NCBI RefSeq assembly: GCF_025716875.1
Contig: NZ_JAOVZB010000001.1
Coordinates: 186,001-250,000 of the forward strand
DNA: 64,000 bases
Source of the DNA: Marinomonas sargassi
GTDB taxonomy: Bacteria > Pseudomonadota > Gammaproteobacteria > Pseudomonadales > Marinomonadaceae
Direction: 5' to 3'
Shown here: positions 5,369 through 50,788 of the stretch, piece after piece
How positions within the stretch are numbered: the first letter of the stretch is position 1
Layout: each line of letters starts with the position of its first letter
Translations under genes and position numbers: made by a program
Notes under the pieces: model-generated
Databases searched by the model: none
What the model saw: only the letters and a program-made list of their open reading frames with translations
What the model was told of the DNA's origin: nothing

Positions 5369-6025
5369 ATGTCTCACGATGAACTGCTCTCGATCTATAA
5401 CGATATTTCAGTAATTGATCACCCTTTTGTTCAACACAAACTCACCAGTTTAAGAGATAAAAACACCAGTACACGCGAATTTCGCATGTTAGTAGAAGAG
5501 CTGGGGACTTTAATAGGCTATGAAGCCACTAGAGATTTAGAGACTACTGACATTGAAGTGGAAACACCATTAGAAAAAACCATGAGCCCTGTCTTAAAAG
5601 GGAAAAAACTCTGCGTTGTTACTATCATGCGGGCTGGCAATGGGTTAGCCGAAGGTGTCTTGAAATTATCCCCTTCCGCACGGGTAGGACATATAGGTTT
5701 ATATCGCGACCCAGAAACCAAACAGCCTGTTGAATATTATCTAAAAATGCCCCATTCAATCGATGAGCGTACCATTATCGTCGTCGACCCAATGCTGGCT
5801 ACTGGTAACTCCGCCATTATGGCCATAGATAAAATGAAAGAAATGGGTGCCAATCACATTCGTTTTATTTGTTTATTTTCAGCACCAGAAGGTATAACGG
5901 CTTTTAAAAAAGCCCACCCAGACGTCGCCATGTACATTGGCACGATTGACAGAGAGCTTGATGACCACGCCTATATTCGCCCGGGAGTTGGTGATGCAGG
6001 CGACCGCATCTACGGTACACTTTAG
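5369..6025 (+). CDS. upp: Uracil phosphoribosyltransferase
   Basis: 218 residues, about ten longer than the usual 208. It converts uracil and PRPP to UMP in pyrimidine salvage. The PRPP-binding signature is [16 protein letters not shown]. The uracil-binding C-terminus ends with [17 protein letters not shown], diagnostic of Upp. [16 protein letters not shown] is the conserved region after the flexible loop. The start ATG is preceded by AAAAGGAAAGG at a good distance. It is a single-gene unit, ended by a hairpin shared with the convergent exporter gene. Confidence 0.96.
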
Positions 6026-6062
6026 ACATAACAAGGCCACATATCACAAGAAGCACTTCATA

Positions 6063-6101
6063 AAAAAGTCCTAGTTCAAATGGCTTAAACTAGGGCTTTT
6101 T
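6063..6101. terminator. Bidirectional terminator between upp and the LysE-family gene
   Basis: A 14-bp stem, AAAAAGTCCTAGTT with AACTAGGGCTTTTT (one G-T wobble), has an 11-nt loop, with T runs at the 3' end on both strands. It lies in the convergent gap between the two genes, so it can serve both. Confidence 0.85.
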
Positions 6102-6125
6102 AAAAGTTCTGATGCGATTCAAAAC

Positions 6126-6746
6126 CTAGCCTTTAAAAGCGAGAAAAGCGCCTGCACTGGCCATAATACCGCCAGAAGTCCTATTCAGAGTTCTAACACT
6201 GCGCTCAGACTTCATAAGCTTTCTTGCTTGCGCTGCGCCTAGAGATACCATAGAGATACCTGACATCAAGCCCACAAAAGCCAAAATAGCCGCCAGTACA
6301 ATATCCGCACCATTTAAGACAGTAAGGTCCATAAAGGTCGGTAAAAATGCGATGTAGAATAAAACCACTTTGGGGTTAGAGGCTGAAATCATAAAGCCCT
6401 GTAAAAAACTCGCCATCTCACTTTGCGACTCATATTGCTTCGACTGATCATCAGGAGAAACAATAGGGGCTGTCCACATTTTCCAACCTAGGTAGATAAG
6501 ATATGCCGCACCAATATAACGAATAGCAATAAACACTTCTTCCCATGCAGAGGCTATAGCAGCCAATCCGTAACAGGCCATAACTAAATACACTATGTCG
6601 CTCATTACCATACCAACACAAAGCGACACACTGGCCTTCGCTCCTTTCGACATACTTTTAGCCATGATGGCAAAGATTCCCGGCCCCGGTGTAACTCCGA
6701 AAATAAAGATGGCGATAAAAAAAGTAATTCCACTTTCTAATGTCAT
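6126..6746 (-). CDS. LysE/RhtB-family amino-acid exporter
   Basis: 206 residues with about six hydrophobic segments, the normal size for this family. The N-terminal FGVTPGPGIFAIMAKSM carries the family's conserved GPGP-type motif, and SASNPKVVLFYIAFLPTFMD is the second conserved block. Members export amino acids such as homoserine, threonine or lysine across the inner membrane; this substrate is not determinable. The start has a strong AGGAGG Shine-Dalgarno. It lies 40 bases downstream of a TetR regulator on the same strand, so the two probably form an operon. Confidence 0.88.
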   Translation of the reverse strand: MTLESGITFFIAIFIFGVTPGPGIFAIMAKSMSKGAKASVSLCVGMVMSDIVYLVMACYGLAAIASAWEEVFIAIRYIGAAYLIYLGWKMWTAPIVSPDDQSKQYESQSEMASFLQGFMISASNPKVVLFYIAFLPTFMDLTVLNGADIVLAAILAFVGLMSGISMVSLGAAQARKLMKSERSVRTLNRTSGGIMASAGAFLAFKG

Positions 6747-6786
6747 ACACTACCTCCTTGAATACTTTAGCTATTACAAACTCTTA

Positions 6787-7428
6787 TTAGCCCTTCACAC
6801 CACAACCAGCAAGAATCATACGAGTGATAAATAATTTCGCTTCTTGGTAATCTGATTCCTCAAGCACATCTTTCTGCAAAAAGACTTTCACTTGAGCATC
6901 AAAATCCGCATAAGTCTGGGTCATTGCCCAAATACTAATAAACAAATGCTCGGTGGAAACTTTCTCCATTAAGCCAGACTCTACCCACTGCTCTATGGTT
7001 TCTTTTTCTCGCGCCAGCTCTGTCACAAAGAATTTTCTTAAGTAATCTAATACAAAAGGCTCTTCACCGATAAGCGCCATAGCAAATACCTTAGAAGCAT
7101 TTTTATTGTCTCTAGACTGGTCGATTTTTTCGCTTATATATCGAGTAAGACTCAATTTCGGACCATCTTCAAAGTTAAATTCACTAACAGACTCTAACCA
7201 AAGACTTAGTATGCGCTCTAAAACCGCTTCTAATAAATCCTTCTTGGAACGGTAGTAATAATGGACATTCGCTTTAGGCAAACCCGCTTCATCAGCAATC
7301 ATTTGTGTCGTGGTTTTAGCCAACCCTTGACGAGCAAACACTCGCTCTGAGGTTTCCAAGATAAGCGCTTGATTTTGCGCCCTAATATGAGATTTAAGCT
7401 GATCTTTCGCTCTTATTACTTTAGTCAA
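6787..7428 (-). CDS. TetR-family transcriptional regulator (RutR-like)
   Basis: 213 residues. The N-terminal helix-turn-helix is clear (AGLPKANVHYYYRSKKDLL, residues about 49-67). The C-terminal domain (KVFAMALIGEEPFV, WVESGLMEKVSTEHLF) resembles the YcdC/RutR C-terminal family, which binds pyrimidines in E. coli RutR, but orthology to RutR is not established. No rut genes are nearby. The start codon is TTG (7428-7426), and no better in-frame start exists. It is probably co-transcribed with the downstream LysE-family exporter. The upstream DNA holds a 12-bp inverted repeat pair and a Fur-like site, suggesting self-regulation and a link to iron. Confidence 0.85.
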   Translation of the reverse strand: MTKVIRAKDQLKSHIRAQNQALILETSERVFARQGLAKTTTQMIADEAGLPKANVHYYYRSKKDLLEAVLERILSLWLESVSEFNFEDGPKLSLTRYISEKIDQSRDNKNASKVFAMALIGEEPFVLDYLRKFFVTELAREKETIEQWVESGLMEKVSTEHLFISIWAMTQTYADFDAQVKVFLQKDVLEESDYQEAKLFITRMILAGCGVKG

Positions 7429-7451
7429 CGGGGTAGTCTCTCGCAGAAAAC

Positions 7452-7533
7452 ATTTACTTACAGGGAAGGTATAAACACCGCACCCTAGACAATCACTAAT
7501 AAGATTATCATTGTTAGCACTCTGTAAGTAAAT
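7452..7533. repeat. Perfect 12-bp inverted repeats upstream of the TetR gene
   Basis: ATTTACTTACAG (7452-7463) and its exact reverse complement CTGTAAGTAAAT (7522-7533) flank a 58-bp spacer directly upstream of the TetR start. The identity stops abruptly on both sides, which suggests selected protein-binding sites. The TetR protein is the obvious candidate ligand; this is inference. Confidence 0.55.
7497..7515 (-). promoter_or_regulatory. Candidate Fur box upstream of the TetR/LysE operon
   Basis: On the minus strand AACAATGATAATCTTATTA matches the 19-bp Fur consensus GATAATGATAATCATTATC at 13 positions, with an unbroken core AATGATAATC. It lies 69-87 bases upstream of the TetR start and inside the spacer of the 12-bp inverted repeats. 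Confidence 0.5.
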
Positions 7534-7549
7534 AATCTAAAGGTCGCAT

Positions 7550-7574
7550 AAAAAAAGGGAGCCAATTGGCTCCC
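7550..7574 (-). terminator. Intrinsic terminator of the candidate sRNA
   Basis: The perfect 18-bp palindrome GGGAGCCAATTGGCTCCC (7557-7574) is followed on the minus strand by seven T. No T run follows on the plus strand, so it acts in one direction. No protein gene ends nearby on that strand other than the diguanylate cyclase 280 bases upstream. Confidence 0.8.
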
Positions 7575-7754
7575 CATTTCCCCTCGTAACAGAGACTTAA
7601 TAACTATAGGCATTCATCATCAAGCTAACTGTTACACCACGTTGGCGCTGTGATTAACTTTCAGTTAAGACACTGAAAGTTAATGTTTTGCTCCCCCTTT
7701 ATCGAGGTACAGCTTTCTTTATTTACAAGAATAAAGAACGCTAATAAATTGATT
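7550..7754 (-). ncRNA. Candidate iron-responsive small RNA (about 205 nt)
   Basis: This gene-free stretch is bounded on the minus strand by a near-consensus promoter (7762-7789) and a strong terminator (7550-7574). The predicted start is near 7754. Between them are: a hairpin at 7712-7741 with a 9-bp perfect stem (TTCTTTATT); a 12-bp perfect hairpin at 7654-7665/7672-7683 with a 6-nt loop; a small GC hairpin (GCGCCA/TGGTGT, two G-U pairs); a 7-bp long-range stem 7586-7592/7629-7635; and an unpaired purine-rich AAAGGGGGAGCAAAAC segment that could base-pair with mRNAs. The only reading frames are trivially short. A Fur-like box overlaps the -10, as in the RyhB, PrrF and NrrF genes. I do not recognise the sequence as any of those, so the family is unknown. 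Confidence 0.6.
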
Positions 7755-7789
7755 GAGAATCATTATAGGCAGTTCATTTCCAAGTTCAA
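7749..7789 (-). promoter_or_regulatory. Sigma-70 promoter with overlapping Fur-like box
   Basis: On the minus strand, -35 TTGAAC (7784-7789) and a perfect -10 TATAAT (7762-7767) are 16 bases apart. The 19 bp at 7749-7767 (TTGATTGAGAATCATTATA on plus) match the Fur consensus at 13 positions, including GAnAATCATTAT. The box covers the -10 and the start region, the usual layout for iron repression. Confidence 0.65.
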
Positions 7790-7857
7790 TAGTTTAACGG
7801 AACTTTTTTGACCATTTGTTCAGTTTTTTTACAATACCTACGTAAAAAGTTGTTTTA

Positions 7858-9117
7858 TTAAGCAATAGTGACTCGGTTCCGACCTTTCTTTTTTGACACA
7901 TATAAAGCAGCGTCAGCTCGTTTTAAAGTCGAATCCGGCGCTTCTCCCTGCTCCGCCAAAGCAAGGCCAATACTCACAGTGACACTAACTTCCATATCTT
8001 TCTTCTTTTTAGGATCAAATACTTCAATTAAGGATTCTTCAATATTTAAACGAACGTTTTCTAAAACCTCTTTAATTTCCTCTTTTTTATCATTCGAAAA
8101 AACTATGGTGAACTCTTCCCCACCATATCGAAATGCTTTTCCCGGAGAACACCACCGCTTCATTTGATCGGCAACATTTTGTAAAACCCTGTCCCCCATG
8201 TCATGGCCATAGCTATCGTTAAATTTTTTAAAAAAATCCACATCGACCATGGCAATGGCATAGCGCTTAGAAAGCCCTATCAAACGTTCATTTAATGCTC
8301 TTCTAGCGGGTAATTTCGTCATATCGTCTAGGTAAGCCATTCGATACCCTTCCATCAAAGCAAACCAAATCCATAACAAAAATTGGGCCGCTAACAGAAC
8401 ATCCAATCTATGTCCTGAAAAAGAAAAATAATGAATTCCTATTAAGCTTAAAATACTAATAAAGCCACAGGCCTTAAAAGCATCTCTACTTGACCACCAA
8501 GAAAGAAATACTGTCGATAAACTCACTAACAAAACGCCCCATAAAAGAACGTCAGACCATGTCTTATTCGTTTGTAAGAAAGTGAAATTAAGAAAGGAAA
8601 AAGACACCCATTTTTGCTCAATGGCGTAACACCAAGTCACCAGCATAAAAATGAAAAGCAGTCGATTAATAACAAAACGGTTCATTAAGCCCCTTTCAGG
8701 CAGAAAGCTTAATAGGGCAATACAAAGGCAAGATACGACTAAATAAGCAACAAATGAACCTTCACTTACGTAGTCACCATAAAGTTTTGGTAACAATAAG
8801 AGAAGCACCAACACCAACACTCGACCTTTGTTGAAATGCCACGCCAGTACCAACGCAAGTGTTGCCATAATAAAAGGTAAAAGAGGTAGCAGACTGAGCC
8901 ATAAAGGCGACAACAGGTCGACATTTATACTGGCATAAATACTGGAAATAAAAATGAGACTAGGGAAAAACAATAACTTCAGTCGCTCAAGCATAAACCT
9001 ACTAAAACTCTCCAACTCAAAAAAACTTACAATGCCATAGTTTATTACCCATGACGACAGAACAATACCAACACAACTGTAAAAAGGGCAGTAAAACGAG
9101 GTAATCTTCTTTTGCAA
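7858..9117 (-). CDS. Membrane-anchored diguanylate cyclase (GGDEF)
   Basis: 419 residues. The first 265 or so residues contain about eight hydrophobic segments, so the enzyme is anchored in the inner membrane by an unrecognised MASE-like sensor domain. The GGDEF domain begins near DDMTKLPARRALNERL (about residue 268), and the active-site loop is RYGGEEF near residue 331. This intact A-site predicts synthesis of cyclic di-GMP from two GTP. The five residues before GGEEF are preceded by CSPG, so the RxxD product-inhibition site is absent. The start codon is TTG and uncertain; an internal ATG exists near residue 42. The nearest downstream element is the candidate sRNA promoter. Confidence 0.9.
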   Translation of the reverse strand: MQKKITSFYCPFYSCVGIVLSSWVINYGIVSFFELESFSRFMLERLKLLFFPSLIFISSIYASINVDLLSPLWLSLLPLLPFIMATLALVLAWHFNKGRVLVLVLLLLLPKLYGDYVSEGSFVAYLVVSCLCIALLSFLPERGLMNRFVINRLLFIFMLVTWCYAIEQKWVSFSFLNFTFLQTNKTWSDVLLWGVLLVSLSTVFLSWWSSRDAFKACGFISILSLIGIHYFSFSGHRLDVLLAAQFLLWIWFALMEGYRMAYLDDMTKLPARRALNERLIGLSKRYAIAMVDVDFFKKFNDSYGHDMGDRVLQNVADQMKRWCSPGKAFRYGGEEFTIVFSNDKKEEIKEVLENVRLNIEESLIEVFDPKKKKDMEVSVTVSIGLALAEQGEAPDSTLKRADAALYVSKKKGRNRVTIA

Positions 9118-9313
9118 GAAAAAGCACCGTCATAGAAAACCTATTAGCACGACTTATAAAGAAAGGGAGCATCTGAATAGTCAAAATATTCGTGAAAGCC
9201 TATTAAACTCTCTACAATTTAAGGATAATGGCAAATATTTTCAGCTGAATTTGTTACATATTCGGCTACTAAGCCTTGTATTAAAACAATCAATTGTTAC
9301 AGAGTCATACTTT

Positions 9314-10249
9314 ATGGAAAAGAAAATACTGTGGGTAATTTCCCTTATCTTGGTTCTCATCCTATGGATTAGGGTGGACTCTTCTATTGAAGAAAGCAAG
9401 GTCTCCAAAAGCGCTGAACAAGCGGAGAAAAGCGCCACTGAGACTTCAGAGCCGCAGCAAGCCGTTGAGCAATTAGCTAACAAGCCTAAAGCCCAAGAAA
9501 GCAAAGCAGAGAATAAAACGCCTGTTACTAAGCAACCAGTTAACAAGCCAACCAACAACGCCTCTAACGGCAGCATTCCAGATTTTGCCAAGATAGCTAA
9601 CATCAAAGAACGCAAAGAAACATTCTTTAATTTTTTAACGCCTTTCATTAAAGAAAAGAACACTTTGGTTTTACAGAACCGTCAGCGTCTTATGGACTTA
9701 ATTGAAAGTGATGAGCAGCTGTCCCCTTCGGACATCCAATGGATCTCATCCTTGCGCAAGCGTTCTAAATTAAAAGTTTTGGATTCTTATAACAAAGAAC
9801 ATCTATCAACACTGCTTGTTTATATAGATATCATTCCAGCTTCCCTGGTATTAGCTCAAGCCGCCAATGAATCTGCGTGGGGAACATCGCGTTTTGCCAC
9901 ACAAGGAAACAACTTCTTTGGTCAATGGTGCTTTAGAAAAGGCTGCGGACTCGTGCCTGCATCAAGAAACTCAGACGCGAACCACGAGGTACGTAAGTTC
10001 GCTGGAGCTAAAGAGTCTGTCTTTGCATACATCAATAACTTAAACAGCAATGGTGCTTACAAGAAACTTCGCGCTACTCGTGCCATGCTGCGAGATGAAA
10101 ACAAAGAAATTACTGGTTTAGATTTAACTCATGGCCTTATTCATTACTCAGAAAAAGGCCAAGTTTATGTAGAGGAAATTGAAGGCTTAATAAATTATAA
10201 TAAACTGTGGCGTTTTAACCACGCTCAGACACTTTCTGAGATACAATAA
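9314..10249 (+). CDS. Bax-like N-acetylglucosaminidase
   Basis: 311 residues from the ATG at 9314 (MEKKILWVISLILVLILWI), which gives a signal anchor at the very N-terminus. An upstream in-frame start at 9251 would put 21 residues before that anchor and is less likely. Residues 20-85 are low-complexity, rich in K, E, Q and A, a probable periplasmic linker. The C-terminal half is a glucosaminidase domain of the Bax/FlgJ superfamily, with the catalytic Glu in LAQAANESAWGTSRF and then NNFFGQWCF. Such enzymes cleave GlcNAc-MurNAc bonds in peptidoglycan. It stands alone, 150 bases upstream of fabY. Confidence 0.85.
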   Translation: MEKKILWVISLILVLILWIRVDSSIEESKVSKSAEQAEKSATETSEPQQAVEQLANKPKAQESKAENKTPVTKQPVNKPTNNASNGSIPDFAKIANIKERKETFFNFLTPFIKEKNTLVLQNRQRLMDLIESDEQLSPSDIQWISSLRKRSKLKVLDSYNKEHLSTLLVYIDIIPASLVLAQAANESAWGTSRFATQGNNFFGQWCFRKGCGLVPASRNSDANHEVRKFAGAKESVFAYINNLNSNGAYKKLRATRAMLRDENKEITGLDLTHGLIHYSEKGQVYVEEIEGLINYNKLWRFNHAQTLSEIQ

Positions 10250-50519: not shown

Positions 50520-50560
50520 AGAACAAAGCCAACGTTTAACCACGTTGGCTTTGTTCTTTT
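50520..50560 (+). terminator. Terminator of the TonB receptor gene
   Basis: The 16-bp perfect stem AGAACAAAGCCAACGT/ACGTTGGCTTTGTTCT has a 6-nt loop and a trailing TTT. The remaining gap to 50788 is AT-rich with no other gene that I can support; it must hold the aminotransferase promoter. Confidence 0.92.
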
Positions 50561-50788
50561 CTATATATCCATTTAATCACTGTGCAAAAGTGATGAATAC
50601 ATTCTTCAAATGTAGGCATTTTGAAAACCACCTTATACATCATTCATAGGTGTATGCTATCTCTTACAGTTTTATAAAAATCACTTTGTCGATTCGATTG
50701 TATTTTTCGCTCAATACGGCAAAATGCAGTTGCGTTCCACTTAACTTTATTTTTCATCTTGGCTCTGCATAAGGACTCAGTAAACATT

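Follow-up and report, generated by a model that had tools for sequence, protein, structure and literature searches.

Which product, if any, is encoded between the gene of a TetR-family regulator (6787..7428, minus strand) and its upstream neighbour, a diguanylate cyclase (GGDEF) gene (7858..9117, minus strand), in the 64,000-nt stretch of Marinomonas sargassi DNA analysed here (the window)? The initial annotation had proposed a highly structured small RNA repressed by Fur. From the positions of a promoter and a terminator, a transcript of about 206 nt is predicted on the minus strand (7550..7755), its start being placed 7 nt past the -10 element. The announced TTGAAC-16-TATAAT arrangement is present at 7789-7762, with the -35 element TTGAAC at 7784..7789, mostly TTGCAC or TTGCGC in orthologues, and the -10 element TATAAT at 7762..7767, which most orthologues retain. 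This promoter (7762-7789, minus) reaches 10 of 12 matches, which taken alone is unremarkable, as 8 promoter-like sites occur in 6000-10000 versus 8.2 expected from shuffles. The transcript would begin with an unconserved 5' extension (7693..7755, minus), variable among genomes in both length and sequence, in which a hairpin at 7711-7742 contains the 9-bp run noted earlier; by eye, the extension is missing from G009 and G020, where the promoter abuts the core directly. Hairpin P1 (7653..7684, minus) follows, and what had been described as a 12-bp stem is present with 13 bp in the window (7653-7665/7672-7684). Its location is preserved across the main clade, and its sequence is almost free.

The conserved core (7550..7652, minus) measures 81-108 nt among 48 Marinomonas genomes and contains GCCAACGUGG (7637..7646, minus), all but one base of which is invariant (GCCAANGTGG in 48/48 cores); it may possibly serve as a pairing element, a protein-contact element, or a 4-bp mini-hairpin. 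Stem-loop P2 (7586..7635, minus) consists of a lower stem, 7629-7635/7586-7592, identical to the 7-bp long-range stem of the annotation, and an upper stem, 7616-7625/7595-7604, closed by a loop (7605-7615, minus) with an invariant GCCUA (GCCTA in 48/48 cores). The purine-rich open stretch seen before corresponds to the linker GAGGGGAAAUGGGG (7572..7585, minus), which is near-invariant and 1 base shorter in the divergent clade. The end is formed by an intrinsic terminator, GGGGAGCC-AATT-GGCTCCC followed by T7 (7550..7575, minus), in which the predicted 18-bp palindrome lies at 7557-7574 and its T7 at 7556-7550; T5 has been found at 48/48 core ends, and GCCAANGUGG, GCCUA and the T5 tail are common to all 48 cores. 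The absence of a credible protein has been borne out as well, since no open reading frame is shared by the 48 orthologous cores, whose longest start-to-stop frames span 2-36 aa. The stretch 7549-7755 folds far better than its shuffled versions (z = -6.8, 0/200), and all 15 of the single cores tested beat the mean of their shuffles, with z between -1.9 and -5.4. The claim of a highly structured RNA has held, but part of what was described, 7653-7755, is a variable 5' extension that does not belong to the conserved core, 7550-7652.

Conservation has been followed through 48 Marinomonas genomes. By blastn, matches have been obtained in 41 of them, four of these being terminator-sized only, and the long matches of relatives do not extend beyond some 100-115 nt in the 3' part. 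A covariance model, R1, has returned a strong copy in 48/48 genomes (53-163 bits) and recovers all 11 genomes with no blastn match or with a terminator-only match; a second, weak R1 match of 27-30 bits occurs in four genomes. Compensatory changes in the stems, named beforehand as a check, have been found in two alignments, whose structure strings were drawn by hand after the folds had been seen and are biased in favour of those folds: in 26 copies of the core with P1, pairing is kept in 96.3% of cells, and two-sided variation affects 14 of 35 pairs; in A4, which comprises 39 of the 48 cores (the nine omitted being mostly close to others), the corresponding figures are 94.8% and 13 of 24. Both-sided changes affect 13 of the 17 pairs in the two stems of P2 and 4 of the 6 basal pairs of P1 (26 sequences). 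When the pairing of A4 is slid by 1-3 columns, 43-54% of cells pair. Among 500 shuffles of A4 the observed value has been reached in 0/500 for four measures and in 9/500 for a fifth (pair types), counts that are not to be read as probabilities because the sequences are related, a relatedness that the slid controls retain. Structure and terminator exceed chance on account of this conservation and covariation. The RNA lies between genes, has a promoter and an intrinsic terminator of its own and keeps a conserved, non-coding secondary structure, traits that would place it among the bacterial trans-encoded small RNAs, and we are highly confident that 7550-7755 on the minus strand is a real small RNA gene.

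Beyond the genus, the RNA has not been traced. In Rfam, no family reaches its gathering score in the window, a permissive scan of the locus has given only weak matches to unrelated families, and no model of RyhB, PrrF or NrrF matches, in keeping with the new family that had been thought possible. The genome's own 6S RNA gene lies elsewhere (contig C9, 106.5 bits) and RF00013 has no match in the window, which removes 6S RNA as an identity; likeness is confined to a structured RNA near 200 nt. A pattern search has placed 25 of its 26 matches in Marinomonas, and the sole outsider, in Marinimicrobium (L050), is unmatched by the model. A second model, R2, has been run against 18 Marinomonas genomes and 372 from other genera of the order, 390 in all. 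High scores are restricted to the 18 Marinomonas genomes (79-118 bits); weak matches occur in 125 of the 372 at E 0.001, the best with 34.8 bits, and the 11 inspected of these 125 read as reading-frame ends followed by a terminator and have been rejected as relatives. R2 scored just 10 candidates per genome, and distant relatives could therefore be missed; a laxer, deeper search of 36 weak-match genomes has reached 33.9 bits at most. No convincing relative has been found in the 372 sampled non-Marinomonas genomes, none on plasmids in a plasmid search, and no published description is apparent among the literature matches listed. Within the window, 50522-50597 (minus) gives a weak R1 match of 17.8 bits and is probably another terminator. 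From these comparisons of sequence, the RNA is very probably an independent gene, with a predicted transcript, of a new genus-wide Marinomonas family outside Rfam.

The question then becomes what controls this gene. Upstream of the RNA, a RutR-type palindrome, 5'-CTGAACAAATGGTCAA-3' (7808..7823, minus), is conserved in the genus, with about TTGAnCGATCGGTCAA as the form common to the loci. In the window it starts 55 bp upstream of the -10 element, and its centre lies at about -61 from the predicted start. Promoter and motif have been called independently, and both have been found in 44 of 47 loci. The distance between motif and -10 is 54-56 in 35 of the 44 (exactly 55 in 29), 44-46 in 6 and other in 3. 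The two upstream distances differ by one turn of the helix and together account for 41 of the 44 scored loci. L095 owes its place in the group of 35 to a poor promoter call and measures 45 by eye; L088 and L096, overlooked by the script, measure 43-44 by eye. Such a placement is that of a putative class I activator site. The half-site spacing, TGA-N8-TCA, would fit RutR and not CRP or FNR, judged by their consensus sequences. In E. coli, the RutR palindrome spans about 16 bp (TTGACCANNTGGTCAA), and by these letters a RutR-type palindrome is present at the promoter, as expected of a member of a RutR regulon. Some loci (L101, L103, several of L090-L099) carry the palindrome once more immediately downstream of the -10, which looks like an added repressor site.

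Across 26 genomes the strict motif occurs 83 times and its reversed control 42 times; a first set of 6 genomes contributes 27 of these sites (6 in the control) and a second set of 20 genomes contributes 56 (36 in the control). After subtraction of the small RNA's own sites, the second set counts 42 against 36, barely above its control, and the argument is therefore drawn from the repeated sites at xdhA and at a ribokinase operon instead of from totals. The loci of 76 of the 83 sites have been examined, the other 7 being 6 small RNA sites recognised by coordinate and one second-strand listing of a site already covered. The classes are the small RNA (20), xdhA (13), a 63-aa protein (9), a ribokinase-nucleoside hydrolase operon (5) and gcvT (4), and the remaining sites are mostly single, pairs in two genomes, or inside genes. 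The motif thus precedes the xanthine dehydrogenase gene xdhA in 13 of 26 genomes, and in the 12 of these 13 sites compared the motif is 95% identical against 49-52% in the flanks, the former figure being inflated as the sites were chosen by the motif. Single sites precede genes for guanine deaminase (G017) and for urate hydroxylase beside hydroxyisourate hydrolase (G045), and one lies 238 nt upstream of carA (G021). A looser palindrome pattern has shown no enrichment in the window's genome (35 and 34 sites against 43 and 39 in the control).

Two side observations concern the motif. In 9 of the 26 genomes it stands some 67 nt before the gene of the 63-aa protein (MDSQQQYEALL..., L206 1583-1774 and 8 other loci), which has no NCBIfam match; these sites say little, because the flanks are 82-85% identical anyway. 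At L197 of the window's genome, the palindrome lies 42 nt ahead of the gene of a Cache-GGDEF protein.

A likely reader of the palindrome is the neighbouring regulator, which carries a RutR-type C-terminal domain (PF08362; Pfam TetR_C_3, 127.9 bits) and whose best relatives with a solved structure are RutR proteins. It scores 134.8 bits with the NCBIfam RutR model, under the curated cut-off of 368, and is consequently RutR-like and not RutR proper. An orthologue occurs in 48/48 Marinomonas genomes and, at E 1e-55, in 0 of the 372 others of the order, the same range as that of the RNA. The usual gene order is GGDEF gene, RNA, TetR gene and LysE-type exporter, and upp often sits between LysE and a gene taken to be lon. 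In the window, the RNA terminator and the TetR gene are separated by a stretch that holds a perfect 12-bp inverted repeat at 7452-7463/7522-7533 (ATTTACTTACAG/CTGTAAGTAAAT). In many main-clade genomes (e.g., L007, L008, L014) the TetR leader, after the RNA terminator, shows by eye a CAGGATG segment flanked by short inverted repeats as well as a CCCCTTT-type run ahead of the start, an arrangement that could be a CsrA-type site.

On this basis, we consider the chances about even that the gene encodes a small RNA which acts in trans and belongs to a nucleobase regulon under the neighbouring RutR-like TetR. More tentatively, the RNA may be the post-transcriptional arm of a nucleobase-sensing RutR-like TetR regulon in which the TetR protein acts as a direct class I activator from a strictly phased site, 55 or 44 bp away from the -10. 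In the former reading, the regulator would bind the palindrome from about -61 and, in response to the supply of nucleobases, switch the RNA along with the genes for xanthine dehydrogenase and nucleoside breakdown. Activation would be expected from the class I position, although TetR proteins are mostly repressors, which counts against this activator reading.

The palindrome of the same small RNA gene could instead be read by another protein, whether an additional RutR-like TetR or some unrelated factor, in which case the TetR gene would be a neighbour by chance linkage; we regard this as unlikely while giving it some weight. A second RutR-like TetR of 33-38% identity is encoded in 40 of 48 genomes and could bind the palindrome. 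In G002, G037 and G047 no TetR gene follows the RNA, its orthologue being elsewhere, and the motif has stayed beside the RNA; where the TetR gene has moved in G037 and G047, the 5-kb stretches surrounding it contain no motif, nor does one stand just upstream of it. Against another binder, eight genomes (G006, G017, G021, G024, G030, G038, G043 and G046) hold at E 1e-30 a single RutR-like TetR, each time the neighbour's orthologue, and the motif precedes the RNA in 7 of these 8, G021 having a weaker match only (11/14).

The RNA would further act in trans with Hfq, for which the genome has an hfq gene, and its invariant unpaired segments (GCCAACGUGG, the loop GCCUA and GAGGGGAAAUGGGG) would pair with mRNAs. 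For the first segment, the complement of GCCAACGUGGU has 25 sites in 8 genomes, 8 of them being the gene itself, against 38 in the control; it is unenriched and therefore supports no target. This outcome also agrees with a different mode of action, in which the RNA titrates or scaffolds a protein through the invariant unpaired elements and does not pair with mRNA, and so does the nature of these segments, which are short, partly G-rich and at fixed structural positions. We judge this mode distinctly unlikely, as the gene is present in single copy with a core of 81-108 nt and a U-rich end suited to Hfq. The protein would not be CsrA, because ANGGA motifs are almost absent (0 in 45 of 48 cores). 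In M. mediterranea, CsrB and CsrC, structured small RNAs of the same genus, are reported to carry a GacA box and many CsrA motifs (PMC8523701). A CsrB/RsmZ-like identity has been rejected on the near-absence of ANGGA and on the GacA-box score, which is at best 10/12 in one locus and at most 9 in the other 47.

A role in cis, as leader or attenuator of the TetR gene downstream, is very improbable. Its terminator does lie shortly upstream of the same-direction TetR gene in most loci looked at, but the RNA is kept without a TetR gene behind it in G002, G037 and G047 and also in G024, where RNA and TetR gene are on one contig but separated by about 13 kb. In G002, G037 and G047, moreover, the TetR gene retains a similar leader of its own that lacks the RNA. 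Nor is the RNA the tail of the diguanylate cyclase mRNA, an objection raised at the outset: it has its own promoter, and it is retained in G002 and G037, where 8-kb stretches around it contain no GGDEF gene. As it is kept without these neighbours, the RNA is not the tail of the one nor, probably, the leader of the other.

Most improbable of all is the iron-sparing RNA after the manner of RyhB, PrrF or NrrF that the initial annotation had favoured, since the Fur-like 19-mer over the -10 (7749..7767, minus), with 13 of 19 matches as stated, is at chance level against the shuffled promoter (P = 0.09) and is not retained in orthologues, where the best Fur scores are 9-13 of 19 in the 39 promoters scored (of 48 loci; in two, L020 and L028, the script chose a site other than the fixed-phase one), as in shuffles; the motif conserved there is the RutR-type palindrome. 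RyhB, PrrF and NrrF are intergenic single-copy genes with a sigma-70 promoter, stems and an intrinsic terminator. The Marinomonas RNA shares this architecture, which is what speaks for such a role, and differs in lacking a conserved Fur site and an Rfam match and in its other conserved upstream motif.

The E. coli RutR regulon offers a further comparison. According to PMC10891134, RutR represses rut and indirectly activates carAB. The Marinomonas system resembles this regulon in a TetR_C_3 regulator, a palindrome of about 16 bp and, in one genome, the carA site. Unlike in E. coli, the sites lie mainly at purine genes and at the small RNA, and the regulator stays below the RutR cut-off. Public RNA-seq data of M. 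mediterranea exist (PRJNA676156, given in PMC8523701). The locus adds what is very probably an undescribed small RNA family, present in all 48 Marinomonas genomes searched, whose core is defined and whose switch can be tested. If the link to the TetR neighbour is true, the breakdown of purines and pyrimidines would be tied to post-transcriptional control, and the system would provide a case of a RutR-type TetR protein that acts as a phased activator.
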